A DNA stretch of 64,000 nucleotides from Pyrenophora tritici-repentis (lineage: Eukaryota > Ascomycota > Dothideomycetes > Pleosporales > Pleosporaceae), in assembly GCF_003171515.1 (NCBI RefSeq), contig NC_089393.1, positions 868,001 to 932,000 on the forward strand. The letters are read 5' to 3'. Numbering within the stretch: the stretch's first letter is position 1; each line of letters starts with the position of its first letter. A model generated the notes under the pieces. The model did not search any database, had not been told where the DNA came from, and was given only the letters and a program-made list of their open reading frames with translations. The position numbers were made by a program, and so were the translations under genes. Below, piece by piece: positions 14,853 to 54,458 of the stretch.

Positions 14853-17007
14853 ATGTCCTTCTTAGAGCTTGAGGGTCTACATGTGTTTGTTACAGGTGCG
14901 GCGGGGGGTATAGGGAGCGCGATTGTGAACGAGTTCTTAGGTATGCGCATGGTTTTCTTTATGTTGGGGGAGGGGTAGGTTGGATGCTTGTTCTTCTAGT
15001 CGTATAGGCGTTTGGAAAGGAGCGTGTTGGTGCTCACGACAGGCGGGCGTCAACTTGGCCATGTCATTGAGACGAACGCTGGACACACGAACTTGCGATC
15101 ATCAACTATACTAACACAAAACAGCACAAGGGTGTAAAGTCACCGCTCATGATCTTCGACCAAACCCTCTGGTATCGACAAACCCCAGTCTCCACTGCAT
15201 ACAAGGGGACATCAGCTCCGAAGACTCCATCCAAGACTCCATCGCCCAGGCCACCGCACACTTCTCACAGCCCATTAACATCCTTTGCGCTAATGCTGGT
15301 ATCACGGACGAATCCTCTAGCTATCCCATCTGGGACATGCCCAGCTCCCTCTGGGACCGTACATATGCCGTCAACGTTCGTGGCACCTTCTTAACTATCA
15401 AGCACTTTCTCAAGTCTATCGAAACTGCTCAGTTGGCGACTGGCGAAGAGGTCAAGAATGTGAGTGTTGTGGTTACGGGGTCTGAGTGTGGAGTTTTTGG
15501 ACAAGCAGGACACGTAGAGTATGCGAGTGGGAAGGCGGGCCTACAGTATGGGCTCGTGAAGACGGTGAAGAATGAGATTGTCAGATTGAACAGAAAAGCG
15601 AGGATTAACGCTGTGGCACCTGGATGGGTAAATACAAAGTTGATTGAGGGGAGACTGGATGATCCTGGGGAAATGTGGAGGGAAGCTGAAGCTACGTACG
15701 TTACCTTACTCTGCAGCGAGATGTCATTTCGAGAGACTAAGATGTGCAGAGTTCCATTACGAAAAATTGCGCAGCCGACAGATGTCGCAAGAGTAGCGGC
15801 ATTTCTAGCAAGTCATCGAGCCGCAGGCCATATCTCAGGACAGTGCATCTCCGTCGATGGCGGCATGGAAGGCCGGATTGTTTGGTCTGAAGACGAAGTT
15901 CGAAAGACACAGAACACAGCTTTAGAACCCGAAAAACCGACCACAAACCCCACTGGCGAAATCTTCGGCACCGCGACAGAAGGAGTTTCCTTAGCGAGCA
16001 GAAACCCTTCCACTGTGGCCATACCCACCATCACCTCCCTCAGCGCTCCTCCACCCGTGTCAAAACCCAAGCCCAAGATCAAGATCCTCCTATCGGTCGA
16101 CTTCGACGCCGTGTCCGGCTGGCTAGGTACCAGCCAACACCCTGACAACAACCTCGCAGACTACAGTTCCGGCTTTTTCAGCGCCTACGTCGGCGTACCG
16201 CGACTTCTCAAGCTCTTTGCCAAACACCACATCGCCGACAAAGTAACCTGGTTCGTTCCTATGCACAGCGCCGAATCCTTCCCCAAAGAGTTTACCGCCA
16301 TCAAAGAAAGCGGCGCAGAAATCGGCCTCCATGGCTACTGCCACGAAGGCGCTCCCCAACTTACTCTGGTGCAGGAACGCGACGTCCTCGAACACTGCAT
16401 TAGTCTGTACCAAGAGCTACTCGGAAAGCGGCCGCTAGGTTATCGTGCGCCGCTGTATCAGCTTAGAGAAAGTACGGTGGAGTTGCTGGAAGAATACTCG
16501 TTCTTGTACGATTCTAGTCTCGCGCATCACGATAGCAAACCGTACTTCTTGCCCAACCTACCTCCCATCGACGTACCCACATACACCGACACTACCCCTG
16601 CAAAAAACTGGATGAGGCCACTACCTCAGCCTAACCCATCCACCTCCAAAACACTGGTCGAGATCCCAGCGAATTGGTACACGGAGGATATGACACCCCT
16701 GCAGTTTTGGCCAAATACACCCAATTCCCAGGGCTATGTTGATGTGCGCGTTGTGGAGAATATGTGGAGGGATAAACTTGAGTGGGTGAGGAATGAGATG
16801 GAAGATGAAGGGTTGGCCGAGGGCGAGATGTGTGTTTTTCCGCTGGTGTTGCATCCCGATACTAGTGGTATGGCTCATGTGATAGGGATGGTGGAGAGAG
16901 TAATTAGGTGGTTAAAGGAGTTGGAGGAAGAGGGCATTGTGGAGTGGTGTCAGTATGCGGATGTGGCGGGGGAGTGGAGGGAGAGGAATGCACAAGAGGC
17001 AGTGTAG
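14853..17007 (+). CDS. Fusion protein: short-chain dehydrogenase/reductase plus polysaccharide deacetylase
   Basis: Exons are 14853-14940, 15125-15695 and 15750-17007 (638 aa). The 54-nt second intron is in frame, so the sequence reads open even unspliced, but splicing restores ATVPLRKIAQP, typical of SDRs. Residues about 1-260 are a classical SDR: TGAAGGIGSAI cofactor loop, CANAGIT, Ser of VVVTGSE, catalytic YASGK, ending SGQCISVDGG. A Pro-rich linker follows. Residues about 320-638 are a NodB-type deacetylase of the HpPgdA-like group: LLSVDFDAVSGWLG (metal Asp), GLHGYCHEG, GYRAP, IPANWYTED and LVLHPDTSG. No signal peptide is visible, so the deacetylase probably acts in the cytosol on a small amide or sugar substrate. 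Substrates are unknown to me. Confidence 0.88.
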
Positions 17008-18623: not shown

Positions 18624-19615
18624 CTATCCAATGTGATGTCCCTCGCCCTTGCTGTGGTCAGCATTATGATCAAAAAACTCCGCTTCCCTCCACACATCCT
18701 TAAACTCCTCCGACATTTTCAACGCCGGGCCAAAGCTCTCCGGCCTCCTCAACTTGTAAAACTCATCCAGCCCAGCGCTATTCCGCTGCTGCCAGTCCAA
18801 TATCGCATCAAAGTTCTTACACTGATGATTGATCTGAAAGTCCGGAAAAGGATTAAGCACAGTATCCGTCCACACGTGCGTATACACATCAACGTTCGCC
18901 TGACACATGATGTTCTGCAACAAATAGTAAACGCAATGCGACAGATGCGTCTTGTGCAGTTTAGTCGTCGAGTTGAAGTCGGCGTACTTGTTGCCGTAGT
19001 AGTGATCGAAATAGGCCTCGCGGCGCAGAGCGTCCAGGCAGTGCAGTTGATGAAATACGTCGATGCGGGCGGCGTAGGCTTCGCCGAGACCGTAGCTTTC
19101 GGGGTATCGAACGGATTTGTTGGGGTCTTTGCCTAGGGCTATGACTTCTTCGCGGGAGATGGCGATGGGGCGCTCGTCAGAGATGCGGCGCCATGCCGCA
19201 TCTACTTCTGGGCCAGGCTCGTTTCTGAAGATCTCGTCGGTTAAGGAGGGGAGGAGGGTGGCGTTCATCTTTTTGGTGACTAGATCGATGTTTAGACGGT
19301 CGAAGATTGGCGCTGGGATTGTTATCTAATGCTCTTTGGTTGTTTGATAGACTTTTGATGCTTACATGGACCTGAACACCTTTTCAAGAGACTTGTGGTA
19401 TCTTGGGATATCTGTGCGTGATATTGGAGAGTCGATGTTGTAAGCGTGAGTAGTGAGAATACGAAGAACCCGATATTGAGATAGAAAAATGGCAGCGGGT
19501 TTGATGTTATCGTGTTTGGTAATCTCTGGAAAAGCCCCGGTCTTTGCGCACTCTTTTCGACATGTTCGTACACATAATTCTCTCGTATGAATCTTGGCAA
19601 ATGTTGTTTCAACAT
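18624..19615 (-). CDS. UstYa-family (DUF3328) oxidase, copy 1
   Basis: Exons are 19366-19615 and 18624-19312 (312 aa), with a 53-nt intron. An N-terminal single membrane segment (PLPFFYLNIGFFVFSLLTL, about residues 39-57) is followed by SPIFDRLN. The two HxxHC copper/iron-type motifs that define the family are present: HQLHCLDALRR and HLSHCVYYLLQNIMCQ. NFDAILDWQQRN follows. UstYa-family proteins perform oxidative cyclisation or hydroxylation of ribosomal peptide cores (ustiloxins, phomopsins, asperipin, cyclochlorotine) and usually work as pairs. Its stop faces the U2 gene. With the second UstYa gene and the repeat precursor to its right, it makes a RiPP locus likely. The ATG at 19615 is the first in frame. 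Confidence 0.92.
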
Positions 19616-20303
19616 TTTCCCGTTACCTGGCAAGGAGGTATGTCCAGTGAAGTGGAAGGACGCCGGGGCGGTCCGGCTCCAGCGAAGAATACCTGGGTGT
19701 AGTATTCCCGTTCCCGTCTAGGTGCCTTGGGGTATTGGAGACAGCGCTATGCGGGGTCCTTATCATTTCCAATATCGAATATACGAATTGTAGCGCGTAC
19801 CCCTCTTTTCGTGGCAATCAAAAGCATCCTTTTAAGGTATAGCACTCAATCGCCCTCAAGACTCACTATAGGTTTCCGCAATACTCACTAGGGAGATCAG
19901 CGTTTTGGAGATAACCTTAAAAACTGCCTAACCAAGGGAGCTTAGGCTCTTGGTAAAGCTTAGCCGTTCTATGGTACGCTGATGTGGCGTGACCTGCTGG
20001 ATCTGGCAGTTCGGGGCTACTTAGGTAGTACGCGGAAGAAATTATTCCGAGCTCAATTTTCTGAATCGTGCATTCCTGGGGTGTGAGGACTCTTGCGATC
20101 GCGAAATTGGAGCGTCGCTGTAAATGGTTAAAGGTGGTTAAGGAGCGATAGTTTCGGATCGCCAGGTTAACTGTACCATAGTACCAGTCATATATTCAAA
20201 TTCATTATTCGTAGAGGGGCTTACTTTACTACAACTAGCAAGGAACGACAATGCGATACCGAATTTAACGGCAAAAACTGGGCATTGCATATTCCACCAG
20301 GCT
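19616..20303. other. Intergenic between the two UstYa genes
   Basis: This region holds the promoter of UstYa copy 1 and the 3' end of copy 2. No ORF or RNA supported. Confidence 0.4.
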
Positions 20304-21434
20304 TTACGTAGACCCCACGGACTTTTGCTCCTCCATAGGATGATCTCGCCAATGTTTGAAATACTTGTTTCCTGGGAACATCCAGTAAAGCCCCTCCATG
20401 TTCTCTTCTGGAGAGTGATCGAAGCCAGATTCATCCATGATTTGCTGTAGCTTCTCCGGGTCAGAAATCATAAACTCAAACTTTGGCGCTCTGTGTTCCT
20501 TTGCCCATTCTTGAACTTTGCTAAAGTTCCGACAGGTATGTGTTGTCGCTAATCGTGGGAATATGCCCCGGTTGAAAGGAATGTTGACGTGGAACGACAC
20601 AGGTGCAACGTCCGATTGACACATTAGAGTTTGGCGGAGGGCGTCAACGCAATGATCTACAAGGATAGTAAGCGAACGGGTCTTGTACGAAGAAAGGAGA
20701 AAGAAATATACCCCAGTGACGGAAATTGAATGAGTTGCGATCAATGGTGCCGTTCTTAGTCATCAATCTTTCCAGCATCTGGAATCGCTCTGGGTAAAGA
20801 AGCTTCCTCAAATCGTTGAGGCAGTGAAGCGAGTGCCAAACATCTAGCTCAACTAAGTAATCCTTGGTTCCTGGGATAGGTATTGTCGGGTTGGGGAGTT
20901 TCTTTGCCTCTTCTTCCGAGATGACGGATATACCAACTGATATTGATTAGTAGCTGTCAATTACCTGTAGTTGCAGCAACTTACAATCGTAAAGATCAGA
21001 CCAACGTTTATCGATCTCGTCATCTGGAAATCCCATATATTCTGTACCATTTGCCAAAGCTGCTACGAAATGTTCTTCGTGATACTCGACTGCATTGTTG
21101 GCAGGCGCTGCACCGGTCTCAGTAAGGTAATTTGAGCAATGATTATAGAAGCCTTACACCAAACACTCAATGACGGATCCTTGCAGTCACCGACAGAATA
21201 GAGCCTGGCACCCAAGATGACAGATATTAAAAGCAGTACGAGATTGCTGGCACAGAGACCTATTACGACCGAGCTTGATTGCCATCTATGTGCGAGCTTG
21301 ATGGCTGAATTTGATTTCGCAATCGACCCGAGCTCCGTTGAGTTTTCCAACAAGCTGTCTCTGCTGTCGTACGACTCAGTGTAGTCTTTTTCGTCGTGAT
21401 CCTCTGAACGCCGTGCTATCACAGGGACCCCCAT
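20304..21434 (-). CDS. UstYa-family (DUF3328) oxidase, copy 2
   Basis: Exons are 21158-21434, 20985-21107, 20712-20936 and 20304-20656 (325 aa); all phases agree. A cytosolic acidic N terminus precedes one membrane segment (SSVVIGLCASNLVLLLISVI, about residues 51-70). The lumenal part starts SPANNAVEYHEEHF and carries both HxxHC motifs: HSLHCLNDLRK and HWDHCVDALRQTLMCQ, the second formed by splicing at 20656/20712. HTCRNFSKVQEWAKEH follows. The architecture matches UstYa/UstYb proteins of fungal RiPP clusters. It differs clearly from copy 1 in intron positions, so the pair is old, as with UstYa and UstYb. It is divergent from the precursor gene, with about 950 bp between starts. Confidence 0.92.
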
Positions 21435-21684
21435 GTTGAATTTGGAATTACAAAGAAATGTGATACGCAATGATGGATAATAAGACCTGTTCAGAGAGCG
21501 ATGTTTGAAATGTGAATGTTGAACAACGCCAAAGTATCTAAGAACACGATAGTATGGTGGAGTCGCCGTAGTCGTTTGATATCGTTCGGAGGCTTGATAG
21601 AATCCCGCTACCGCGGAGAATTATAGATCGCGCGACTCATAATTAGGCCGTACATCAAATCGTAGGTGTACACGATAGAAGATC

Positions 21685-21702
21685 TCCGATATCGATATCG
21701 GA
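21685..21702. promoter_or_regulatory. 18-bp perfect palindrome, CCG-N10-CGG
   Basis: TCCGATATCGATATCGGA equals its own reverse complement. Paired CGG triplets are the classic layout for Zn2Cys6 regulators. The half GATATCGGA recurs at 22249-22257, right at the precursor's TATA box. Confidence 0.5.
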
Positions 21703-21715
21703 TGTGAAGCGTATC

Positions 21716-21732
21716 TGTATCGGTCCGATACA
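21716..21732. promoter_or_regulatory. 17-bp inverted repeat, CGG-T-CCG core
   Basis: TGTATCGGTCCGATACA is a perfect 8-1-8 inverted repeat, 13 bp downstream of the CCG-N10-CGG palindrome. It is a second candidate site for a Zn2Cys6 protein. Confidence 0.45.
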
Positions 21733-22256
21733 TGATACGAGAACCCCTCCCTGCTCAAGCTGAAGAATCCTTGCTTAGATAAGAAGGTGAACGATACAGT
21801 GCGGATTGCGAAAGAATCGCGGAAATAGTCATCATCATATCGCAGTCCATTCATGGCTATGCTTTGAGCAGCGAAAAGTGGGTTTGATGACAAAACGACG
21901 TGAATGGTCTGTTTGGATTATACCCAGCTCTCTGTTGTTACAATTCGAAAACCTTCCATTATTGGAAAGCCAAAATAAACCACTCAGTAATAATAGGCCC
22001 TTCATGACGCGTTGTGCATGATCGGTTCGAGCGCATTAGCCTGGGGTGAAGGTGAAGATAGCAAAAGACTTTACCCAGAGAAGAAGGTGAACAAATTAAC
22101 GGAGACTCTATCTACCGAGAGGAGACGGTGAGCGTGGTAATGGAGAAGAAGACAATCGGGACAGCGGAAGAGAAAGTGAGCCGAACGACGAGGAGGAAGT
22201 TGGGGTAGCAACGGAGAACTTACTTGCATGCATCGGAGACTTTGCCTGGATATCGG

Positions 22257-22263
22257 ATATAAA
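22257..22263 (+). promoter_or_regulatory. TATA box of the RiPP precursor gene
   Basis: The sequence CGGATATAAAGG lies about 120 bp upstream of the precursor ATG and directly abuts the GATATCGGA half-site at 22249. Confidence 0.55.
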
Positions 22264-22381
22264 GGCGTATGAAGTGAGTTCCTATCGCCTTCATTGCGAG
22301 CAAGATCTCTCGATAACAGTAACCAGTTCACCTCTAAGCAACTATCTTCGTTCGCATTCTACCTACCTAGTCCACAACAAG

Positions 22382-22825
22382 ATGAAGTCAATTCAGATTC
22401 TTCTAGCGCTCGCCACTGCTGTGGTTATATCTGCCCACCCAACCGGCGATGTCGCTAAGTAGGAACTATGGAACCGCTGTAAAAATTCCTGTCTGACTAG
22501 GGTCTGTAGGAGAGCGCCTGGCGTTGATGAAATCTCGGCAGGTCTGTATGGTGGCTGGGCAAGAGCTGAGCCTGAAGCCAAGTAAGAATCATGGAACTAC
22601 TCTGCTGAATATCTCTCTAATTACTTCCAGGAGAGAGGCTGGCGTAGATGAGATCTCAGCAGGCCTCTATGGGGGCTGGGGAAAGGCCAAGCCCGAAGCG
22701 AAGTAAGAACCATGGAACTACACTGTAGGTATCTCTCTGATCACTGCCAGGAGAGAGACCGGCGTAGATGAAATCTCAGCAGGCCTCTATGGGGGCTGGG
22801 GAAAGGCTAAGCCTGAAGCCAAGTG
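22382..22825 (+). CDS. Secreted, Kex2-processed repeat precursor (putative UstYa-type RiPP precursor)
   Basis: Predicted exons are 22382-22458, 22510-22581, 22631-22702 and 22751-22825 (about 97 aa). Exon 1 encodes a signal peptide (MKSIQILLALATAVVISA) and ends in AA of a Lys codon. Each following exon starts G-AGA, so every intron splits the Lys codon of a Lys-Arg site. The three repeat exons are 72 nt each and encode 24-residue units sharing GVDEISAGLYGGW, then a charged tail ending PEAK(R). Kex2 cleavage would release three 22-residue peptides with one Tyr and one Trp each. The last unit meets TGA directly after Lys, whether or not the next intron is removed. Two UstYa genes next door support a ribosomal cyclic peptide. 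An alpha-factor-like pheromone has similar layout, but the core lacks the usual WC...CW pattern. Confidence 0.82.
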
Positions 22826-22936
22826 AGAATCCTAGAGCTGTATTACAAAGAGTGTCTCTAATTAGAAATCGCAGGTGAGAGGTGAGTGTTGAGGAGATCT
22901 CGGCAGGCCTCCATGGAGGATGGCCAAGGGCTGAGT
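22510..22936 (+). repeat. Tandem exon-intron repeat, about 121-bp unit, four copies
   Basis: Units begin at 22510, 22631, 22751 and 22875. The introns are also related (GTAAGAATCATGGAACTAC and GTAAGAACCATGGAACTAC), so exon plus intron were duplicated together. The fourth unit keeps ATCTCGGCAGGCCT but has TGA in place of AGA and His in place of the core Tyr. Confidence 0.85.
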
Positions 22937-23303
22937 AGACACTGTCTGATGGACTTGCCTACCGTCGTACGAAATCGAGATTGCGGTTACGGTAGGAAGA
23001 GACACTAAGTACATAGAACTATGTATCGATACAACCTTGAGGTGTCAATCTTTCTTTGAATCCGTTCAATGGTCCCCAGATCTGTGAAGACGCCATCCTA
23101 CGTGTTGAGAGGTTGAGGATACATCAGCACGATTCCATAATCTAGTTAATAGGAAGCATTGATGGGATTGTAGAAGCGCGTTGTTTGTAGCCGAGGTGCC
23201 CAGGCGGGAACTAAGTGCAAAGCCAAGGCTTAGTATTATCACGTGATGCTTGACATCGATAAGATCTAGAAGCTGACACAACCAATGAGATCTATCACCA
23301 GGC
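22826..23303. other. Intergenic after the precursor, includes decayed fourth repeat
   Basis: The fourth repeat unit (22875-22936) lies here. Beyond it I see only 3' flanking sequence shared by the convergent precursor and sulfotransferase-like genes. Confidence 0.5.
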
Positions 23304-24253
23304 CTATGCCAACGTCTGCCTGAGAATGCTCAACGTCGCGGCCCATTGCGAACGGGATTTGCTTCTCCATATAGCCAAGCCCACGATTCCAGCACCCAGG
23401 GCGTAAGGTATCGATTTCTTGGCAAAATTCCCTGCAACATGCTTGAAGAACATATTCTGCTTCTGCCTCACCCGCTGCAGGTGCTCCCCCCTCTTATTCT
23501 TGACAGGAAACGGTACTTCAGGTACTTCTTTACCTAGAAACTCACATAAAGGCTTCCAGCCATCCTCCAAGTGAAAGTTGAGCAAGCGCTCCTCTGGCAC
23601 CGCCGCCCGAATCTCAGCATAGTGTTGCCTGTACCGATCCTTGGCAACCCGCCGCATCTCGTTCACGTTCCGCACGCCGTAATAACCCAGCATGATCTTG
23701 CGAATCGTCTTCCCGCCAGTGAGCCCGTAAAGCGGCCCCAGCACATCGATCACGAGATCTGCACGCAGTCCCCACGTTGTGCTAAAGATGGCCTCCTCCA
23801 TGCTCTCGTACCACTCATCCACGTCGCGCTCCACCAAGATAATCTTCGCCTCGGGGTATGCGTTTATCAACTGTTTCGCGAAGAAAGAGCCCATATCGGT
23901 GACGGCCTCATAAGGACCGAAGACTGCGTCGAAGTCGGCGCGTGTGAAGGGCTCGCCCGTGTAGGTTGGGAGCACAGGAAAGAAGGCATCGCAGGCCTTG
24001 CTGAAGAGCTCCCACTCGAGCGGCGAGCTGAGACCTTTTATACCGTGGTGCACGCCTTGATATCCCAATATTTCGAGAGCTTGAGTTATTGAAGCCGACC
24101 CTATTGTAGGTTTGCTCTGGTTAGCCTCCTGCAGCAACTATATACAATATCAAGAGTCTTGAGATCTTGGAACTCACCAGTACGTGTCATTCCTAGTGAG
24201 AGCACCTTGAGCTCTCGCTTGGGGCGGTCTGCGATAGAGGCTGGTGTCGCCAT
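23304..24253 (-). CDS. Sulfotransferase-family protein (Sulfotransfer_4 type) with C-terminal membrane anchor
   Basis: Exons are 24178-24253 and 23304-24100 (290 aa), with a 77-nt intron. The N terminus LKVLSLGMTRTGSASITQAL is the P-loop-like 5'-phosphosulfate binding segment. ALEILGYQGVHHG, YPEAKIILVERDVDEWYES (3'-phosphate contact with Arg and Ser) and LLNFHLEDGWKPLCEFLGKEVP follow, all typical for this fungal family. A C-terminal hydrophobic segment (IPYALGAGIVGLAIW) suggests membrane tethering. Family members are often called NAD-dependent epimerases or P-loop NTPases in databases, and biochemical roles are poorly known. It is convergent with the precursor gene and could belong to the RiPP locus, to the P450/PKS cluster on its other side, or to neither. 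Confidence 0.82.
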
Positions 24254-24847: not shown

Positions 24848-26510
24848 CTACTGCCTAGACTTCAACGTAACCATGAGGGGCTTCTTCTCCCAAACCAAAT
24901 AAGACTTTTGCGTGATCCACCAGTCCTCGCACTTGGCCTCCAATGAGATGTCGAAGTTCCAGAAGACCTTGGCCAGTGCCAGTCTTATCTCGTTCATTGC
25001 CATACTACAGAGTATCAAGTCAGCAGTTACTCAGTGGTAAGAGCGGAGAATTCAAAAAGCTTACTTCTGCCCGATACAATCATGTCTGCCATAGGAGAAA
25101 GGGCGAGATGCGCCCCGATCGTCGCAAGCAAACTCCCCTTCTTTTGTCTGCAACCACCTCTCGGGGATAAATTCAAGCGGTCGATGCCAGTTCCAGGGAG
25201 CGTGACATACTGCCAGATTGTGCACGCCTACTGCCATCTTTGTCGTGCTAGTCAGTGGAAGTTCACCACGACACCAATAGCTGAGAGAACACGTACCCCT
25301 CCCGGTATCCATTTACCTTCTATCTCTTCTCCGCCCTGTGGAACCCATCGTGGTAATGTTGATGGGTTGGGAGGTGATATGCGCAATGTCTCGTCGATAC
25401 ACGCCCTCAAGTACAACAGCTCACCAGCAGCAACTATCGTGATCTCATCCTCGCTCGAGAACTTGCTTCGCACCTCGTCATTGAGTTTTGAACGAATTTC
25501 TGGATTCCGACAAGTAAAAAAGACTAATGCACTCATGGTATACGCAGCCGTATTGCTACCTGCCACGATCAACGCACTCGCCATACCAAACAAGTCAACG
25601 TTGCTCAGATTCTCAATTTCATTACCAAGGATATAGCTCATGAAATCCCTCCTCTTCCCCTGGCGCTTGTCGCTGCGCTCCTCGTCGATGCGCCGCTGTA
25701 GCTTCTGAAAAGTCAACGCTTGATGCCGCTTCCGCGCCTCCATGGACGCCTTGGGCGCCGTCCATCTAAGAATCCATTCAATGTGGTAGTGCGCAGCGAG
25801 CTGGTACCAAACAATAGACTTGATACGCGCCCCCATAACGTCCAGCCAGGGCTGGTCGGCACGGTCCAGACAGCCAGCCGGTTCACCAAACGCTAGGTCA
25901 CTTACAATGTCGAAACTCAGTAGACTGAACCAGCGTGCCATATTCTGCTTGCTAGTACCATACTTTGGGCTCCGCAACTGTACAATTAGCTTGTTGGTGT
26001 GATCCCTGAAGTAGTCTTCCTGGTCGCGCAACGCGCGCTCACTGAAAGCCGGTTGAATCGCGCGGCGGAGGATGGCGTGCCGTTCGGGCGTCTCAGTGAC
26101 GATGCTCCGGCACCCGTTGGCAACTGCAGGTGCAATGCCACGGCCGTCAAGACATTTAAGAAACTCGCGCGGCGGAGCAGAGCCATAAATCTTCTTCCAG
26201 GCAGTGCCAGTGGTATACGATAGCTCATCGGGAGCGACACGAACCACAGGGCTATTGTATTGTACATGCATGTCACGAATGCGCCATGCCAGATCGCCTT
26301 GCAGGTTGACATAATTCCATGGAATGCGCGAAATAGCCCAGAGTTTTGGGCCTGGAAAGGCGGATAGCGGATGGAAAAAGATGCAGTAGATGGAGCGAAT
26401 GACGAAATACACGAGGGGCTATTCTCAATCAGAATCTCAAGGCCTTGTTGACATTGCAAGAAGTGCAGACTTACAACGACCAAGACAAGAAAGGCTATAA
26501 TAGACCACAT
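24848..26510 (-). CDS. Cytochrome P450, cluster member 1
   Basis: Exons are 26475-26510, 25297-26418, 25065-25237 and 24848-25004 (495 aa). The N-terminal membrane anchor starts MWSIIAFLVLVV and leads to FFHPLSAFPGPKLWA. The I-helix is LIVAGSNTAAYTMS, where the usual acidic residue before Thr is Asn. ExxR is ETLR, and the heme loop FSYGRHDCIGQN carries the Cys ligand. The third exon must start at ATG after CAAAG to give PGGMAVGVHN, parallel to PGGYAVGVNQ in the P450 at 29.5-31.2 kb. The two are clear paralogues (shared DELSYTTG/S-AWKKIYG, GRGIAPA, AFDIVSDLAFGEP). It probably oxidises the polyketide made by the PKS at 35-43 kb. Confidence 0.93.
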
Positions 26511-27461
26511 GGTGGTGTCAAGCTTGGTAGTCTTGGCTGTGGGGTTGGGTCGCCTTGACTTCTCTTCCGAATAGTCAAACAACGGGCTTCACGATTGCGG
26601 GTTGAGGGCAGTGGTACCTCAAGATAAGTCACCTGCCCAAACTATATCGAGCCAATTGAAGCTTTCAGATATCCACGTGGCTGACCGACCTATCCAAAGC
26701 CTCTTGGATTAGGTATGGCTCCAGTCTCAGCACTTTCGATGACAAATTCAAGGAAAGCGAAGATGATCCGTGCCTTGCGTCCTGCACGATATCCAGTGAT
26801 GATACGGGTGTGGTCGCACTAGCTATGCTTGCGTAGCCATCTGTTCACCGGCTGGGGCTTCTAGAGCGCGACGGTAAAGTATACCGAGACACTACGAGGC
26901 CCCGAATATCCTGTAAGTGTCGTGCCTGCAATCCTGGAGCGCGGGCTCTCGGCGATACTCCACGTACTTATATTCCGTATTCGGTCCGGTCTGCCTAGTT
27001 GGGGTTGGTCACCGTTAGTCATTACCATGCCCCGACATGGGCAGTAACAGGATGGTGGTATCGATCGAGAACAGTAAGAGTTATGGATAGATTCTATCCC
27101 GGGCTATCTTTTGGTAGAAGCATGGTTAGTCGCCATGCTAACACCTAAGCCAATATCGAAGGGCCGATCCATATTTGAAGTAACTGGAAACCCACACCAA
27201 TAGCGACATAGATACAGCACCACGTGTTGAGATAACCTGATGGCTTCTTTCTGGACTCACTGATGTCCTTGAAGCTGCGTATAACGGCTCCAGAACAGAG
27301 AATGAGTAACTCGGTTCAACAATGAACGAAGGTCCGCTAAACTACCAAAGTAGGGTGTCTTGTTTATGGAGTCACATGGAACTGCCAAGTTGCACGATAT
27401 GAGATACCTAGAAACATATAGCTATGATTATATTGTGGCTTGCGTGGATTGACATCAAAAC
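26511..27461. promoter_or_regulatory. P450-1 promoter region
   Basis: This 951-bp region has no ORF of note. CACGTG motifs sit at 26674-26679 (in CCACGTGG, about 165 bp upstream of the P450-1 start) and at 27221-27226 (within ACCACGTGTTGA). Confidence 0.5.
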
Positions 27462-29069
27462 CTATTCGAGAGCTACCCTCAATCGACACATGACTGCTGC
27501 GTCTCTCGCCATTGGGCTACCGGGACTGCACACGATAGTAAAATTATGCCAGTCGCGCTCTGTATCAATGTCCAGCCCCTCAATGACATCGTATCGCTGG
27601 ATCATTCGTACCAGTACGTACCCAGCTTCTGTAAGCGCAAACTGCTGCCCAATACAGATGCGTGGCCCGCCATTGAAAGGAACATACTGCCAAGCCATCC
27701 CCGGCCTCTTCCGCTCCCACCGCTCGGGCACAAACTCGTCGGCGTCCTCGCCCCACAAATCTTTTCGCCTGTGAAGCACATGCGTGCTGAAATTGACTTC
27801 AGTACCTTTGGACACGAAGACAGGCATAGTACCGTCCGGCCCTCCGCCGACGGGAAGTGTGGTGTCTCGTACAGCGCAACGGGAATTGAAAGGGACAACC
27901 GAATGCAGTCGCAGTGTCTCGCTCATGACATGTTGGAGATATGTGCAGCCCTTGAGCTTCTCGAAGGTTATGCTTTTCCCAACGGTAGTCGAATAAGGGC
28001 CAAAGGTCTGAAGAATGATCTCGTGTAGCTTCTTGTATGCTTTCGGATGCCGTACTAGACAATAGAAGACCCAGGCTGTAAGCGACGCCGTCGTGTCCCT
28101 GCCCGCTGCCAAAAGACCCAAAACTTGCTCACGTACTTCGGCGCGGTCGGAACAACGCTTTCGTAGGGACTCGAGGAAGTCGTAGCGAATTTGAGAAGAG
28201 CCTTGTTGTCTTGCTTGATCTGCGGCGTCGATGGCACTGTCGACAAAAGCGTGGAGTGTCTTTATGCACTTGTTCAGCTCCTTGTTCCCATACAGCCAGT
28301 ACAGACTTCGCAGCCGCATTCTTGTTCCTAGGATGGCCAGCATGCGCTCAAAAGCGTGGTCGAAGCTGTCTGCGTCATACTGATCGTTGCAGTTCTTCTG
28401 CTGCTGTTTGGCAAGGAGAGTTCTGAGAGAATTTGTACTCTGTCCCAGGAACAGCTCGGTTGCCGAATCCATAGTCAAACAGGGCAACAGTGTAGCCAAG
28501 CTTACAGATGCTGACCACGCTCGACCCTCGTCATCGGTCGTCAGCCCCTGTTCTCTCGTCTCGATGATCTGTATCATGGTCTGCACATGTTCCTCGAGCA
28601 GTTCAAGCCTGGAGACATTTTCCCTACTGAAGATCGGCCGCATTGTCTCTCGGGCGCGATGCCACGCCTTGCCATCCACGGCGAAGATACTTCGCCCAAG
28701 AGCTGTCTTCAGGTTCGTTCTTCTTGCCGTTCCCATGATGAAATCGTCAAACTGCGTCGCGAGCAATGCCTGCACGTTACGAGGTTCAGCCGTGATAAAG
28801 TTAGATGTACCTAGCACTGATATCCCCCATGTGTATCGTCCCATGGCCTCGAAGCGCGCGGTCACGAAGTCAGGCGTTCGTTGCTCTCTGTCGGCTCGCA
28901 AGCCACGGCGTATGATGTCGATCCCCAGAGGCCATCGAGTTGGCTCGAAGGGTACGGGACCACATCTGAGACGTCGAATTTTGAGAAGATTACGCAGGGG
29001 ATTGATGAGGACGATATCCGTAATGCGTATGAGAAGCAGCAACCCCGCCGCTAGGATGAGGACGTTCAT
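27462..29069 (-). CDS. Cytochrome P450, CYP52/CYP63-like, cluster member 2
   Basis: This is a single-exon gene of 535 aa starting MNVLILAAGLLLLIRI (membrane anchor). Motifs are the I-helix LLAAGRDTTASLTAW, ExxR in ETLRLHSVVP, and the heme loop FNGGPRICIGQQFAL. FSTHVLHRRKDLWGEDADEF and FVPERWE are typical of the alkane/fatty-acid omega-hydroxylase group (CYP52 and relatives). It is unrelated in detail to the two flanking paralogous P450s and has no introns, so its origin differs. Within the cluster it is a good candidate for terminal oxidation of a long alkyl chain, an inference from the family only. Confidence 0.93.
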   Translation of the reverse strand: MNVLILAAGLLLLIRITDIVLINPLRNLLKIRRLRCGPVPFEPTRWPLGIDIIRRGLRADREQRTPDFVTARFEAMGRYTWGISVLGTSNFITAEPRNVQALLATQFDDFIMGTARRTNLKTALGRSIFAVDGKAWHRARETMRPIFSRENVSRLELLEEHVQTMIQIIETREQGLTTDDEGRAWSASVSLATLLPCLTMDSATELFLGQSTNSLRTLLAKQQQKNCNDQYDADSFDHAFERMLAILGTRMRLRSLYWLYGNKELNKCIKTLHAFVDSAIDAADQARQQGSSQIRYDFLESLRKRCSDRAEVREQVLGLLAAGRDTTASLTAWVFYCLVRHPKAYKKLHEIILQTFGPYSTTVGKSITFEKLKGCTYLQHVMSETLRLHSVVPFNSRCAVRDTTLPVGGGPDGTMPVFVSKGTEVNFSTHVLHRRKDLWGEDADEFVPERWERKRPGMAWQYVPFNGGPRICIGQQFALTEAGYVLVRMIQRYDVIEGLDIDTERDWHNFTIVCSPGSPMARDAAVMCRLRVALE

Positions 29070-29492
29070 CTGTATTTTCAGTGTCGTGATATCAGCGTCC
29101 GCAAGTGTGTTGAAGTTGTACCTGGAGAAGCTGAGTAGCGCGTCACTGTTAGCTTAAATATTATACAAGCCGTTCTTCCTGGGGAGGTGTTTAAAATCCA
29201 CGTGCACAGCGCTAGACAGGGGACTGATGATCGCTCAAAATCTTAGTGTGCCAGCTGTGAGCCTACTTACTGGCCTTTTACAGTCACTCAAAATGCTGGG
29301 TTAGCTTGTTCATTCGGGATGCTCGAATCTGATTGTATTACAGCTGAGTTCACAAGAACTCGCCATCAACGTGACAGCATAAGAAACATGTTCCCCATGT
29401 GTATGTATATGGATCTATTCAGTTCTGGAGCTCAAGCATCAGGAGGAGGTTGGCAGATACGCCATGGGAAGATTGAGCCCAGACTATTACTA
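29070..29492. promoter_or_regulatory. P450-2 promoter region
   Basis: This region lies between the P450-2 start and the P450-3 stop. CACGTG at 29199-29204 is about 130 bp upstream of the P450-2 start codon. Confidence 0.45.
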
Positions 29493-31203
29493 CTATTCGT
29501 TCGCATCAAATACAGGCTTCAACTTCACAAGCAGAGGTAACTTCTCCCACACCAAGTAGGTACCTTGCTTGTTCCACCAGTCGTTGTCGGGATCGTGGAG
29601 CTCCCAATCGAAATACCGTACAAGCTTTGCCATGGTGAGTGACATCTCGGCATAAGCCATAGATCGTCCAATACAAGCCCTCTGACCGTACGAGAACGGT
29701 TGAACAGCAGAACGGTCATCATCTTTGAACTCCGAGTTTGGTTCATCAAGCCAGCGCTCGGGGTGAAACTCACGCGCTCGCTTGAAGTTGCGCTCTGAGT
29801 GCCCGGCTGCCAGCTGGTTGACACCAACAGCATAACCGCCTGGGACCCATCCGCCCTCGATCATTTCGCCTTTTCCAGGAACGAATCGAGGCAGCGAGCC
29901 CGGAGTCGGTGGGTACAGACGCATACCCTCATTGAGGCAGGCGCGCAAATACTTGCAGCTGGTCACTGCCTGGACGGTCATATCTGCGCGATTCTTGAAG
30001 AGGCCGCGTATCTCCTGCTTGAGCTTTTCCAATTTATCGGGGTTGCAGAGGAGCAAATACGTCAAGCCGGACATGCCGCCAGCAGATGTACCGCTGCCTG
30101 CCACGATGAAATTGGAAGAAAGCATCACTAGTTCGAGGTGGTTGAGTTTCTCGTCGTTCTCGAGGATGTATGACCTATTGAACCATGGAGTTAGCGGTCT
30201 GATTTGTAACGGGAATAACGCATCCAGCATACATAAAGTCTTTTCCGGGATTCTTGGCTTCAACCCTCGCCTTTAGTTTGGCCTCAGTCATTGCGATGTG
30301 CTTCTTTCTCGACTCAGTGACATATTTTGGCGTCAACCAATTGAGCAATCCCATCGCCCCATACTGCACAGCAAGCTGGAACCAGACGATAGCTTTGGCG
30401 CGAGCCAGGATGGCTTGTATCCACGGTTGATCTGGGTTGTTAACACAACCCGAGGGCTCACCAAAAGCCAGATCAGAGACAATATCGAACGCGACGAGGT
30501 TGTACCATGTCGTCATATCGAGAGGTCCGTTTTCACACCGCTCCTTCAGCTTCTGGACGAGATTATCCGAGTGATCTTGAAAGTAGTTCTCTTGTTCGCG
30601 ACTAGCATGATCCAAAACATCAGTATGGCCGTGCCATGTCGAAGATTGATATATGCAGATGAAACTCACAGTGCTCTCTGGCTAAAAGCCGGATCTATAG
30701 CTCTCCTCAACCTCAGATGTCTATCCTGATGCTCAGTCATCAAGCTACGCTGGCCACCTATACTCGCGGGCGCGATACCCCTTCCATCAAGGGCTTTGAC
30801 GAACTCGGGGTTCCGCTGTCCGTATATCTTCTTCCACGCGCCTGATGTCGTATACGAGAGCTCATCGGGGGCGATGCGCACAACTGGGCCATATTTATCG
30901 TGAAGCTCGCGGATCTTCCAACTGATGCGACCCTTCATGTTGGCCCGATTCCATGGTAAGCGAGAAATGGCCCAGAGCTTTGGGCCCGGATAGCCAGCCA
31001 GAGGGCTCAGGTAGACGTTGTAAACTACCTTACAAAAAACATAGAGTATAATCTGAACCCCATCATCAGCTTGTAGATGAACGATTCTGGAGTCCGTATA
31101 GACTTACAAGCACGGAGACACCAGTGAAGATATTTAGGAGTGTCAATGGCGGCACTCGAACGAGCTGATCCCTCAGGCTATCTTGTATGAAAGAAGTTGT
31201 CAT
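29493..31203 (-). CDS. Cytochrome P450, cluster member 3
   Basis: Exons are 31108-31203, 30670-31028, 30233-30601 and 29493-30174 (501 aa). The N-terminal anchor continues into YNVYLSPLAGYPGPKLWAI. The I-helix is FIVAGSGTSAGGMSG, ExxR is in NEGMRLYPPTPG, and the heme loop is FSYGQRACIGRSMA. It closely parallels P450-1 and resembles fungal isotrichodermin C-15 hydroxylase-type P450s. Intron positions differ from P450-1 in part (30602-30669 has no P450-1 equivalent), so the duplication is not recent. It is divergent from the FAD gene, with 960 bp between starts. A role in tailoring the PKS product is inferred from clustering. Confidence 0.93.
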
Positions 31204-32163
31204 GATGCCTCTGAGTGACAAATATCAAGCAGATGGACGGCTAGGTTTTCTTCAGCCCAGCACTCTAGAAAAAGCTGAAAGTGACTATGGAAACCACCGC
31301 GACGTGTCTGCAGAGTACCCGCATTGGGCAACGGGCTTCATCGTCGCTTCCTATTCCCAAGCCTCGCATACATCGACTAATGGAACTGACCAGTGCACGA
31401 CAGAAGTCACCAATCAAGTCACCCCTTCATCGCACGCTGTCGCAAATACGTAGTCTAGGGAACTCGAAGCTTGTGCAGTGAAAGATAGATGCAGATGGCT
31501 GGTACTATCAATTCGGCCCTTGCTGGTCGGGCCGATCTACTCGCAGATATGCACATAGAGAGTCAGTGATGTTGCGGCATCAACGGCCGAGAACAAGGGT
31601 CTATGCAAGACAGTTTAGAAGCAGCGGCGAACACGTGGGAGCTGAAGCTTGGATCGACTATCGAATGATATGTGAGGCTTGACCACGTGTTGAAGGAACA
31701 AAGCCTCCCGAGGTCAGTTTCAACACTTCCATAACGCGTCCCACCGCGGGGTTGATTGGGTTACAATTGAAGGTTTCGCGGATGAATTGAGACCTCCGAA
31801 AGAACAACCCATGCTTGCTGCAGCTAAGTGCAATATGCAGCGCTGTCTTTTTAAACGGATTTGTAATTCCGTCGATATCTCCCCGCGTAGATTTCAGCAC
31901 ACGGTATTCCAGATAGTTAGTCCACCGGCGTGCATGTGGTCCTCATAAACCACATTTCGAGCTATTGATATGCTATCACTAGTCATTCTACCGAATCATG
32001 GCTGTTATGCTTCCGTTCGATAACTGCTGTAATATCCGACGCTTGCGACTGGTTTTAGCTGATTGTCAGATAGTCACAAGCAGATTCATATTCTGGCCTT
32101 AATTTTCTATCATCGCCAATTGCTGTCGTCTACATTCAGAGACTTTCAATACAATACCTGAAC
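31204..32163. promoter_or_regulatory. Divergent promoter region, P450-3 and FAD oxidoreductase
   Basis: No gene recognised. Two CACGTG motifs occur at 31633-31638 and 31685-31690. The second is in ACCACGTGTTGA, the same 12-mer as at 27219-27230. Confidence 0.5.
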
Positions 32164-33805
32164 ATGGGTGATCAAAACAGCGCCGATACTCTTGCCCTTT
32201 TAGGAAAAACAATCCGCGTCGAGCTCCAGCAGAAGCTGTCAAGTAAGGCGCGTGTCCACTTGCCGTCCGATGAGAACAGAACAGAATTCGACAAAGCCAA
32301 TCTGCGTTTCACTCAGTATGAGCGTCCAACGTATCTCGCCGTGGTCGATCCAAGCTGTGAGGATGATGTTATTGCAGTCGTCAAGTATGCCCGTGAGAAG
32401 GGCATCCCATTCACACCTCGCGGTGGCCATCATGCAGTCACAAGTACAATGAGGCATTTTCGAAATGGAATATGCATCAATATGCGCCCGCTCAACCAAA
32501 TGCGATGGAATGTCGAGAAGCGGCAAGTTACTACAGGTGGAGGAGCAATAACGGACGAGTTTGTGCGCTTTGTGCATAGCTTAGGCATGGAAGTCAGTAA
32601 GTCTTAGAGGTTCTTTCCATATATTGTGAGTACTAACGAGTATCAAGACGTGGGATCGTGTCCTACGACTGGTATCATAGGTGTAGCGTTTGGCGCGGGC
32701 CTAGGACGCTTGCAGGGCAAATACGGCTTTTTGAACGACAACATGGTTTCCTGCAAACTCGTACTCGCCGACGGAAGTGTGGTAATTGCTTGCAAAGACT
32801 CAAATCCGGACTTATTCTGGGGTATCCGGGGAGCAGGTCACAATTTCGGCATTGCACTTGAAGCCACTTTTCAGGTCTACCCGCAGGCACACGGAGGCAT
32901 CCATCATACTTGGGACTTGGAGTACACTCTAGACCAGTGCGATGAAGTTTTCAAGACGCTTAATAGCGTCTATGATACTATGCCTGCTGAATTGGCAATC
33001 TTCGTTCTATGGATGCGTCAGAGTAGCGGCCGTAAGGTAGGCAGTCCTATCGATGCAGATAACAAGACCACTAACATATTCCAGCACATCATCCTCGTCA
33101 ACCTGGTCTGGTCTGGTTCAGTCGCGAAAGCAGACCCATACGTGCAGCGCTTCGAGTCTTTAAACCCAGTCTTGAACAGCGGACGAAAGTCAGTGCCATG
33201 GCCAGAACTACCTTTCTCAACGTACAAAGAGATGAACAAGCTTTTCTGCAAGCCTGAAGTCTGGCTACGGGGCCCCTATAAGATGATGGGCGCCGCTTGC
33301 GTTGATACCTTTGACCTCAAGACGACGCGCGAGTTCTTCGAGAGTGTCAAAGCCATGAGTGAGGAATGGGAGGATTGCGGCTGGTTCAGCGCCATGTTTG
33401 AATGCCTGCCTGACCAGCGCGTGCGCGAGATTCCCAATGACGCGACGGCGTTCCCATGGCGTGGAGGATCAAATCACTTCTTGTAAGTCGACTCCTCTAG
33501 TTTTCTTTCGCAAGCAGCTATTAACATAGGTGCTCAGGATGCTTAATGCTACACCAAAGCGGATGGAGGATCGCAAGGTCTTCGAGGACCATCTAGACTA
33601 CTGGAAGCAACGCTTCATTGAGACGTCTGGGTACGGTCGTTTGCAGCAGTACGTGAGCTATGGTAACGGCACGTCATCTATGAAAGATCCTCTCGAAGCA
33701 CTGTATGGCTATGAGCCGTGGAGGCTGGAAAAGCTACGGGGTCTCAAACAGAAGTACGATCCTGACAATGCATTTCGATGGTACCAGCCAATCATTGAGC
33801 CATAA
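32164..33805 (+). CDS. FAD-linked oxidoreductase (berberine-bridge-enzyme type)
   Basis: Exons are 32164-32596, 32648-33482 and 33538-33805 (511 aa). The FAD_binding_4 fold shows FTPRGGHHAVTSTMR, where a His in GGHH is the likely 8-alpha-histidyl FAD link. VTTGGGAITDEF, the loop VGSCPTTGIIGVAFGAGLGRLQGKYG (cited here only as positions near residues 147-172) and WGIRGAGHNFGIA follow. The C terminus holds the BBE domain, ending YDPDNAFRWYQPI. No signal peptide is seen, so a cytosolic enzyme is likely. A single FAD enzyme next to three P450s and a reducing PKS repeats the content of the alternapyrone cluster. Oxidation of the polyketide is inferred. Confidence 0.93.
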
Positions 33806-35006
33806 GTTGTTAGATATTAGATATCGAGTAGTTGCTAGCACTCCTGTAGACCACTGAAGTATGATATTCGGGACAGTGTTGAACTCTTGAGCCACCTGAT
33901 AGTTCAGGTAGCCCGACATCCAACCACAACTCCAGTGAACAGTGACAGACCGTCCGCGTACATGTCAGCACGAAAAAAAAACGCCGCGGGTGTTACATCC
34001 CTGGTGCATCACGACCCAAGCCTAGTCTACCAAGCGCCCATATACCTCTTTCCGCTAGTCTCGAGTTGGACCGCATAAACAAGAGTATGCCTAGATCCGG
34101 GGCAATACGATCAAGCCCACGCTAAGTATTCTTCGAAACGCGCCTTTAGTGGGTCCGCGCGGCGATTTCAGCCTCGTCTTACCTGTCTCTTTTGTCTCCT
34201 GAGATCACGCTTGACAGCACCCGCTAGTATAGTTTGTCACCCGTTTACGACCATACTCCGTATGATCCTTCCGCTAATACGCTAGGTATCGTGCACGTGT
34301 AGAAACACGTGTTTGCATACATCCATACCCGGGCAAATCTAAAAATTGGTCGAAGTGGCGGAGAAATAAGCAGTATGTTGGTTTTTGTGAGTGGATTTCC
34401 ATAAGCAAATCCCACTTGCTCACAGTATAAAGAAATAAAAACATATGTGACTGCAGGAGCTACGCATAACTACAGATTCGGACCTCAGGTTTGAAGGCAG
34501 TACTCGAAGAACGACAACTGTAGACGAATGGTCAATCCCACGAGTCAAGATCGGTTAAATTACGCGAGCGGCAGGAAGCGTAACAGCTCTGGGTCCATCT
34601 TCCGAAGAACCCACTCTGTAATTCCTACGAACGTGGGATAGGCACTCTCGGCAACTGCATGCCCGAAGTATAGCCATCACAGCGTGCTCAAACCATGAAG
34701 TGGTATTGGGCACCATATTCCCATGCGCTTGCAGACACTCACATTACTCCTGCCTAATGTACGTATGAGTGTTCGAGTTGGGAGGATGAATATTGGATAG
34801 CCGCGCCGCGCACCTGCAGCTCTGGTAAATACATCTGCATATCCAAGATTTGACAATGATATGTACCTGTTAAAACCCACATAAAGTCGCGGCAGTTTAT
34901 TCTTCTCATAAATACTACCATACCGCATCTAAGCTGTCTACACACAACTACGAACTGCTCCCCTTTGTATTGACCTGCAATTTTGCTTCTTGCAACGAAA
35001 CCAGCA
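33806..35006. promoter_or_regulatory. PKS promoter region
   Basis: No ORF is supported in these 1.2 kb. Two CACGTG motifs lie 12 bp apart at 34294-34299 and 34306-34311, about 700 bp upstream of the PKS start. Confidence 0.45.
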
Positions 35007-38000
35007 ATGAGCAAACCAATCGCCATCATCGGTATTGCCTTTAGGGGTCCTGGCGATGCTCGGGATCCCGAGGCGTTTTACCGTATGCTCGTTGAGGGCC
35101 GTAGTGCTCGCACTGAGGTACCCAAGGATCGATACAATGTCGATGCTTTCTATCACCCTGATCCAGAGCGGCTAGGTAGCATTCAACAAAGGTAGTTCTA
35201 ATACCACTCTTTGTTCAAGCTCTTAGCTGTGCTGACTTCCAACGTGAAAGACACGCACACTTTCTAGACCAAGACTTCAAAGTGTTCGATGCGCCCTTCT
35301 TCAGCGTCACACCCAAGGAAGCCAAGGCCATGGACCCCACACACCGCATGCTCCTAGAAGCTGCATACGAAGGCTTCGAAAACGGTATGACATGCCCCTC
35401 CCGCCCAGATCAATTGACAAACTGACCTGACCGTTGCAAAAAAGCCGGCTTAAGTTTAGACCGTTTATCGGGAACACAAACATCATGTTACATCGGGACC
35501 TTCACAGCTGACTTCCCCAATATGCAAGCCCGTGACAATGAAGGCCCTTCGATATACCGTAAGTCCCGTGCTATTCTCATCCTCAGGTTGGGATGAAGAT
35601 GAGCTAACTTGTCCTCCTTCCAGACGCAACAGGAATGTCATCATCACTGGCTTCCAACCGATTATCCTGGTTCTACAACCTCAGGGGTCCTTCCCTTACA
35701 GTCGACACAGCTTGCTCGTCCAGTCTGACAGCATTCCATCTAGCATGTCAGAGCATCCGAACAGGAGAGGCTGAGATGAGCGTGGTCGGGGGTGCCAATT
35801 TGATGTTTGGACCTGATATGTCTATCTTGCTGGGCGCGGCAAAGATTCTCTCGGCAGACGGGAAAAGCAAGATGTGGGATGCGAATGCCAATGGATTTGC
35901 TCGTGGGGAAGGGTTTGGTGTCACAATTCTGAAGGTTTGTACTTTTGCGGTTCTGTTGCTATTTTTGTGTGAGGAATTTGACTGACGGGGTGCGAATTGT
36001 AGCCTCTAGATGCGGCATTACGCGATGGCGATACTGTTCGAGCAGTCGTGCTGGCCACGGCTACTAATGAGGATGGTCGCACACCTGGCATCTCGCTGCC
36101 AAACAGTGAAGCGCAGGCAGAGTTGATTCGGGGGGCATACCGGATGGCTGGCGTGGATCCCGCAGAGACTTCGTACGTCGAGGCACATGGAACGGGAACG
36201 CAGGCTGGTAGGTGACAATTAATTGCCCTGCATATGATACAGGCAGACGACCTCTGACCAAAGACGTTCAGGCGATCCACTGGAAGCTAGAGCCATTTTG
36301 AAAACTGTCGGGTCAGTCGAGAACCGCAAGTCAGATCTCTACGTCGGATCCGTCAAAACGAACATCGGCCATCTCGAGGGCGCAGCCGGTGTAGCCGGTG
36401 TTATCAAAGCTGCGCTTGCCGTTGAGCGAGGTCTGATACCACAGAATCTCTGGTTCGAAAAGCTCAATCCCGATATCCATCTACCAGAAAACGTCAAGGT
36501 ACCCACCAAACTGACCCCATGGCCACACAACGGACCTCGCCGTGCAAGTATCAACAGCTTTGGTTTCGGAGGTGCAAATGCACACGTCATTCTCGAGGAC
36601 ACGGCATCTTTCCTGGCACGTCATGGTTTGAAAGGTCGACATGCGACGGCACCGCTCCTTCCCAGCTTGGCCACTGTACGCGATGGCTACGTCAGCGACA
36701 GTCCTAGCAGCTCTGGAAGCACTGTCGCTGAAGAGCCATCCAGCGGCGAATCCAGCGACACCGCAAGTGATATGTCGAGTGAGGTCCTACGCGACCTTCA
36801 CCCCACATCAAAGTTGTTCGTCCTGTCTTCCAACGATCAAGAGGGCGTCAAACGCAATGTCGAGCGCCTACAAGATTATCTCGCCTCTAAGGTCTCCAGC
36901 GGACCCTCTTTCCTCAGCGACCTGGCATTCACGCTGAGCTCCAAAAGAACCGCGCTGCCATGGAAGTCATACGCAGTTTCCTCGAACCTCAGCGGCCTAC
37001 GAGAGAAAATATCAAGCCCTGCGCCAGTGGTTCGCTCGTCCACTTCCGTGATACCTAGAGTCGCTTATGTGTTCACAGGCCAGGGTGCACAGTGGCACGC
37101 AATGGGTAAAGGTCTCTCTGCGTATGCGACGTTTGCGGAAAGCATGCAGAGATCCGAGGCTTTTCTCAAGTCGTTCGGTTGCCCATGGAGCCTTACTGAG
37201 GAGCTCAATCGCACTGAAACTGAATGCAAGCTACGCGAGACCGACTACAGCCAGCCAGCCTGTACCGCCATCCAAGTTGCTCTCGTAGACCTCTTGAGCA
37301 TCTTTGGTGTGAGCCCTGTCGCTGTTCTTGGCCACTCTAGCGGCGAGGTTGCAGCTGCGTATGCCGCCGGCTTCATTGACCAAGAGGCTGCAGTCAGGAT
37401 CGCTTGGCTGAGAGGACAAGTCAGCAAGACTGTGTCCAAGAACGGTGGCATGTTGGCTGTATCCGCCAGCGCGGACAGTATACAACATCATCTCGATGGC
37501 TTGAAGGACGGCAGGGCAGTCGTGGGTTGCTTCAACTCCACCAAGGCATGCACCATCACTGGAGACGCTTCTGCCATCAGTGAGCTACAAGTAGTGCTGA
37601 AAGGCGCGCAGGTAGCATGTACCAGGCTCCCCATGGATGTCGCATACCATTCCTTCCACATGGAGTCAACCCGTGAGAAGTACGAAAGGGCTTTGAAGGA
37701 CATCCCGCATGGCTCGATGTCCACTATCCCTATGTTCTCCTCCGTGACGGGCACGCTGGTTGCCCCCACGCAGATGAAGCCATCCTACTGGGTCGACAAC
37801 CTGGTATCTCCTGTAAACTTCGTCGCAGCTGTCCGCTCCCTTCTGAACCACCCCCAGGAGAGCAAAACGCGCAAAGCCTTCGCCAACCTGTTCGTCGAGA
37901 TCGGCCCCCATTCAGCACTCCGCAGCTATCTCCTAGATATCTTCAGCAGTGAGAACCGTGCCGCAGATTCAACATACACCACCATCCTGCGCCGCAATTT

Positions 38001-54456: not shown

Positions 54457-54458
54457 TA

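Follow-up and report, generated by a model that had tools for sequence, protein, structure and literature searches.

Dikaritins such as ustiloxin, phomopsin, asperipin-2a and victorin are fungal ribosomally synthesized and post-translationally modified peptides (RiPPs) whose precursors combine a signal peptide with core repeats holding an aromatic residue, and whose genes have UstYa (DUF3328) neighbours. Such repeat precursors are cut by kexin. In the available parts of the published sources, to which the statements cited here are limited, UstY enzymes are described as using a dicopper site for crosslinks of side chains such as Tyr (PMC9769878, PMC12186524), Umemura counted 7878 kexin-processed peptides (KEPs), 1758 of them with DUF3328 neighbours (PMC7329392), and nine dikaritin clusters were found in Venturia inaequalis (PMC9632046). 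The locus type considered here is, therefore, already known. In the accessible portion of a report in which 187 Pleosporaceae genomes were mined, RiPP clusters were found only in Alternaria, Curvularia and Bipolaris (PMC12278603). The present analysis concerns a stretch of 64,000 nucleotides (the window; G000:C4:868001-932000, in a 40.9-Mb genome of 41 contigs) from a pleosporalean-type fungus, where a small gene for a repeat precursor lies beside two UstYa genes and a sulfotransferase-like gene. By its gene content the DNA is fungal. An earlier note on this DNA had read these genes as a candidate RiPP locus with the UstYa layout. That reading was supported, as a KEP-type precursor beside two near-complete UstYa genes is the dikaritin layout, and the locus is probably of the dikaritin type.

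The splicing of the precursor gene (22382-22826, + strand) was modelled from sequence, and all statements about its repeats and Lys-Arg (KR) sites refer to the spliced model. The exons are 22382-22458, which encodes the signal-like start, 22510-22581, 22631-22702 and 22751-22826. When introns of 51, 49 and 48 nt are taken out from 22382 onward, a product of 98 amino acids results, which reads MKSIQILLALATAVVISAHPTGDVA, KR-APGVDEISAGLYGGWARAEPEA, KR-EAGVDEISAGLYGGWGKAKPEA, KR-ETGVDEISAGLYGGWGKAKPEA and a final Lys followed by TGA. The N-terminus is hydrophobic at residues 6-16 (mean hydropathy 3.05 over 11 residues, a measure of hydropathy only), and the start looks secretion-signal-like. The three 24-residue units bounded by Lys-Arg occupy one 72-nt exon each (22510-22581, 22631-22702 and 22751-22822, all on the + strand), between phase-2 introns. 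Both the signal peptide and the three repeats proposed in the earlier note are present in these terms, the former as signal-like by hydropathy and the latter once the three introns are removed. The Lys codon of each Lys-Arg site is split by an intron, so that a complete dibasic site forms only once the message is spliced. The exon-plus-intron unit recurs with periods of 121 and 120 nt, and a diverged fourth unit (22875-22937, + strand), on which the earlier note is silent, follows at 124 nt. This unit lies beyond the stop codon and is untranslated in every splice form modelled; translation stops directly after the Lys whether the intron before it is removed or kept. All four intron positions have GT-AG ends and a GTAGG, GTAAG or GTGAG donor. 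Intron 1 offers a second possible acceptor after 22500, with which the frame would be kept and VCRR, containing a dibasic RR, would stand in place of KR. If any intron were retained, the modelled precursor would stop immediately behind a kexin-site Lys, leaving 0, 1, 2 or 3 cores. These clean stops may be a by-product of the splice signals, since any phase-2 intron with a GTAAG, GTAGG or GTGAG donor gives such a stop.

The core of the three units comprises 13 residues and is identical in all of them (VDEISAGLYGGW). A comparison of units 1 and 2 gave six synonymous and no amino-acid changes in the 13 core codons, against four synonymous and five amino-acid changes in the flanks. The corresponding core counts were five and zero between units 1 and 3, and one and zero between units 2 and 3. 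The codon comparison shows that the core codons are under purifying selection. In the fourth unit, three amino-acid changes in 13 core codons were found with respect to each of units 1-3. A six-frame scan for repeated 13-residue stretches gave 65 pairs in the window and none in five shuffles of it in three-base blocks; the 40 pairs listed all lay either in the precursor gene or in a repetitive region at 46.7-48.6 kb. Across the whole genome the motif pattern matched only the four units at the precursor locus. A weak extra genome match to the core (E 0.21) was taken as chance.

Two UstYa genes lie upstream of the precursor gene on the opposite strand. UstYa1 (18624-19615, - strand; exons 19366-19615 and 18624-19312, intron of 53 nt) encodes 312 amino acids matching PF11807 at 8.9e-59 over profile positions 15-220 of 220. 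UstYa2 (20304-21434, - strand; exons 21158-21434, 20985-21107, 20712-20936 and 20304-20656) encodes 325 amino acids matching the same profile at 4.1e-54 over positions 9-220 of 220. The former carries HQLHC (19052-19038) and HLSHC (18947-18933), and the latter HSLHC (20835-20821) and HWDHC (20718-20649), which is split by intron 3; the two genes with paired HxxHC motifs claimed before were thus confirmed. Each protein has a single N-terminal hydrophobic stretch, at residues 41-59 in UstYa1 and 56-74 in UstYa2. Because the UstYa2 and precursor genes are divergent, the 947-bp stretch between them (21435-22381) would be their shared promoter region. UstYa2 is 89% identical to a protein of Pyrenophora teres f. 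teres, and an alignment of 47 of the 63 UstYa2 relatives shows conservation of at least 90% for the His and Cys residues of the two motifs. In a tree of 32 of the 63 relatives plus the window sequence, the latter pairs with Pyrenophora teres (100/99), followed by an ENA sequence, Boeremia, Alternaria panax and Macrophomina (86/93, not firm) and then by Discula (94/85, not firm). A predicted model of the P. teres UstYa2 orthologue (predicted local distance difference test score 73.9) had no convincing relative among solved structures.

When the precursor was searched against 5.8 billion proteins, three matches were obtained at E <= 10, namely P0001 (3.1e-5), P0002 (8e-3) and P0003 (0.8, non-significant alone), all of which keep VDEISAGLYxxW. 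P0001, an 88-residue protein of Boeremia exigua, starts with a signal-like sequence and contains SVDEISAGLYIDW in two units bounded by KR (VDEISAGLYIDW repeats). P0002 and P0003 come from ENA contigs of 2593 bases. They look like open reading frames (ORFs) that read one repeat exon out of frame, cross an intron-like segment and enter the following repeat in its proper frame. As the window itself yields the same sort of shifted ORF at 22524-22706 (exon, intron, next exon), we infer that the source of both shares the layout of introns between repeats. In the seven in-frame units (three from the window, two from P0001 and one each from P0002 and P0003), the VDEISAGLY stretch and the Trp never change; the two positions separating Tyr from Trp differ among sources (GG, ID, EE). 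Moreover, P0001 and the Boeremia UstYa2 orthologue (P0007) each lie on a contig of 1,442,626 bases and, as these sizes are identical, very likely share one contig. The encoded motif had no match in viral contigs. Its single match in prokaryote genomes is antisense to an ORF that is valyl-tRNA-synthetase-like by its translation, and was judged to be chance.

With the dikaritins described above the window gene shares the signal peptide, the core repeats with kexin sites, the UstYa neighbours and the aromatic core residue. The cores YVIG/YAIG and YVIP, as given in the source parts available, are unlike VDEISAGLYxxW. To our knowledge, the remaining dikaritin cores are unlike it too. The tyrosinase of the cluster and the EDYxI-type core that characterize the ustiloxin/phomopsin subgroup are both absent, the core being VDEISAGLYGGW. 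The window gene also differs in having one repeat per exon and Kex2 Lys codons split by introns, in a comparison that took the known precursors without their gene structures. About introns between the repeats of known fungal RiPP precursors, the available parts of the literature searched, supplements lying outside the search, were silent either way. Epichloecyclins (GigA, Epichloe) likewise derive from a secreted repeat precursor with kexin sites and are cyclic peptides with a Tyr-Ile link (PMC9233826); they are cyclic nonapeptides from imperfect repeats, in contrast to the three identical 13-residue cores found here. Plant burpitides, made by BURP-domain copper cyclases, resemble the proposed system in function only, as copper enzymes of another family and kingdom that crosslink side chains of ribosomal peptides (PMC12186524). 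The string EISAGLY was not found in the literature searched; supplementary tables were outside that search and earlier cataloguing is possible. The locus is consequently presented as a credible addition to a known type of peptide natural product, with a core string new to the literature searched.

According to the pathway that we propose, the precursor would enter the secretory pathway through its signal peptide, as its hydrophobic start suggests, and kexin would cut it at the Lys-Arg sites of the spliced model into three 22-residue peptides. A kexin gene is present in the genome (Peptidase_S8 and P_proprotein in one open frame, G000:C8). Both UstYa oxidases, each held by one N-terminal hydrophobic anchor, should expose their HxxHC pair to the lumen and would oxidatively crosslink the LYxxW end of the core, most likely via the Tyr phenol or the Trp ring. 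That the product is crosslinked, that these oxidases act on this core and that the Tyr or Trp of LYxxW takes part is what we infer from the family to which they belong. The AP, EA and ET flanks and the PEA tail would be trimmed by dipeptidyl and carboxypeptidases. VDEISAG may serve as a recognition stretch within the repeat, because it is invariant across sources that differ in the two residues separating Tyr from Trp. Repeat number changes by duplication of the exon-plus-intron unit of about 120 nt, as the repeats themselves show. The computed linear [M+H]+ values are 1323.6215 for GVDEISAGLYGGW, 2205.0822 for EAGVDEISAGLYGGWGKAKPEA and 2005.0025 for GVDEISAGLYGGWGKAKPEA; after loss of 2H they become 1321.6059, 2203.0665 and 2002.9868, and sulfated forms would be heavier by 79.957. 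It is conceivable, and on balance unlikely, that VDEISAGLYxxW marks a separate dikaritin class in which Tyr and Trp are linked by the oxidases over the two variable positions of Y-x-x-W, VDEISAG acts as the in-repeat recognition stretch and splicing sets the number of cores.

Several points weigh against a dikaritin-type locus, and some of them feed other explanations. The gene model, its splicing and its product are predicted here from DNA sequence. This leaves room for the idea that the small, intron-rich precursor locus, with a diverged unit at its end, is not a gene, only a chance 120-bp tandem repeat with intron-like stretches. Such a reading is scarcely credible in view of the core changes between units 1-3, which are synonymous only, the three database relatives of the repeat, and the GT-AG ends, GTAGG, GTAAG or GTGAG donors and phase-2 symmetry at the four intron positions; given the synonymous-only changes and the absence of repeat pairs from the shuffled windows, it was rejected. 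It also leaves room for a linear secreted signalling peptide of the KEP layout, which kexin and an STE13-type dipeptidyl peptidase would free as they do alpha-pheromones while the UstYa proteins act on another substrate. After Lys-Arg, units 1 and 2 begin with AP and EA, the XP/XA signature of STE13 in alpha-pheromones (PMC6339444), but unit 3 begins with ET, and the window gene is unlike ascomycete alpha-pheromone precursors in having no PYGxPxG, no Cys and UstYa neighbours. The Pleosporales pheromone motif PYG[L/M]P[I/V]G (PMC6339444) is absent from the precursor gene. In the genome, PYGxPxG gave seven matches (five clustered, two single elsewhere) against two in the reversed-pattern control, and the single matches therefore mean little. 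The five belong to an alpha-pheromone-like gene (G000:C2:2603833-2604128) with five PYGMPVG units and KREAEA-type spacers, a gene that speaks for a source within the Pleosporales. As the mating pheromone gene lies there, the identity of the precursor as a pheromone was rejected, and the case that the earlier note had named as refuting, a known precursor of another class such as a pheromone, was in this way checked. In addition, the available part of the KEP survey gives no DUF3328 neighbours for any putative yeast-type factor among the 7878 KEPs, nor for 98.6% of the putative fungal pheromones (PMC7329392). A linear signalling peptide is, on this evidence, improbable.

The remaining points concern the UstYa genes and the precursor relatives. 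None of the at least 25 tyrosinase matches in the genome is on this contig. Only three precursor relatives are known, one of them non-significant alone, since a joined 211-residue query for longer precursors, with 8000 candidates scored, gave none at E <= 10; and the identical size of the contigs of P0001 and P0007 in Boeremia is not adjacency. UstYa-family proteins act on non-ribosomal products too, and chlorinate and hydroxylate in the cyclochlorotine cluster (PMC12048977); two UstYa2 relatives (P0013, P0041) are automatically named cyclochlorotine protein O. A cytochrome P450 gene of the adjoining polyketide cluster (about 25-43 kb), whose highly reducing polyketide synthase (PKS) starts near 35 kb, stands within about 1 kb of the sulfotransferase gene. 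The UstYa pair and the sulfotransferase could accordingly belong to that cluster and the peptide gene be unrelated to them. We consider this quite improbable, as the precursor gene stands head-to-head with UstYa2 and between the UstYa and sulfotransferase genes, and as the Boeremia precursor and UstYa2 are on contigs of identical size; gene order and co-occurrence in Boeremia argue against it and do not settle it. The polyketide cluster itself (about 24880-42975) comprises three cytochrome P450 genes, an FAD/BBE oxidase and the highly reducing PKS with a methyltransferase.

The sulfotransferase-like gene (23304-24253, - strand; intron 24101-24177) encodes 290 amino acids matching PF17784 at 1.6e-64, is convergent with the precursor gene and is tied to the pathway by position only. 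A dikaritin-type product that is also sulfated by this enzyme, which would be an addition to the crosslinked peptide proposed above and not an alternative to it, is doubtful. The genome gave two PF17784 matches, one of which sits at this locus, and the protein is similar in sequence to solved sulfotransferases (best E 5.7e-21). It also has a P-loop-like GMTRTGS and an R...S spacing, which we take to be typical of enzymes using 3'-phosphoadenosine 5'-phosphosulfate. Nevertheless, no signal peptide was apparent in the protein, which has a single C-terminal hydrophobic segment, and its catalytic part would thus probably lie in the cytosol. The precursor and the UstYa domains should be across the membrane, in the lumen, and this argues against direct sulfation of a lumenal peptide. 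The gene that the earlier note had placed beside the precursor is indeed there, and the option of a sulfated product that it had raised was weakly supported.

Outside the window, 20 UstYa matches covered by 13 stretches of 9.9 kb were scanned for repeat pairs. A separate KR-based scan recovered a pheromone control (L034) and is ill suited to genes with split Lys codons. In the scan for pairs, no repeat pairs were detected in 10 of the 13 stretches. The others gave 43 (L046), 2 (L050) and 144 pairs (L056), and no Lys-Arg repeat precursor was seen in the parts of L050 and L056 that were read. A second UstYa group was observed at L045 (G000:C9:1014837-1018241), with five matching stretches on both strands within 3.5 kb and no repeat pair in the 9.9 kb around.

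Near the end of contig C2 there are two paralogous genes, in L056 (763-2338, - strand; G000:C2:4982262-4983837) and L063 (504-2331, + strand; C2:5010803-5012630), and a search of the genome with their first exon found only these two. Each begins with a signal-peptide-like exon and two further 3-nt exons, followed by 16 (L056) and 19 (L063) units of exactly 84 nt, in each of which 3 nt accompany a near-identical 81-nt intron bounded by GT and AG. In both genes the triplet of the last unit opens a shared last exon (GCTGCTCTCGATTCTTAG), so that splicing as modelled would leave 15 and 18 single-codon exons in the two arrays. Over the 35 units the triplet columns have mean pairwise differences of 0.56, 0.69 and 0.63, whereas the intron columns average 0.053. 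In the first array, one intron column, located six bases ahead of the triplet, comes close to the variability of a triplet column (1.27 and 1.30 bits, respectively). The 35 triplets include no stop codon, which proves little alone (chance 0.49). These genes look like candidate arrays of single-codon exons, which possibly diversify a small secreted peptide, and they are stranger than the peptide locus itself. Among the papers found in a search on 3-nt exons, judged by titles and abstract openings, none was on fungi. A UstYa-matching exon or fragment (L056 5003-5212, + strand; profile 164-218), which carries an HxxHC of the second type, lies roughly 2.7 kb away from the first array gene, and the ORFs after it read, by their translation, like pogo-type and copia-type transposon proteins.

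As for other features of the window, an open frame of 844 residues at 46596-49127 (+ strand) begins with a signal-like sequence, contains tandem repeats of 63 to 129 nt and has no Pfam match. Downstream of the clusters, pieces of a Tc5-type helix-turn-helix and a DDE_1 transposase (52385-56066, + strand) correspond to a pogo-like element. At 15115-17004 (+ strand), a short-chain dehydrogenase domain and a polysaccharide deacetylase domain share one open frame.

Taken as a dikaritin-type locus, the genes described here provide, for a pleosporalean-type fungus, a compact and testable RiPP locus whose core is shared with Boeremia exigua. They also suggest why genes of this kind are overlooked, since their kexin sites arise only on the splicing of small exons and their relatives appear as odd ORFs.

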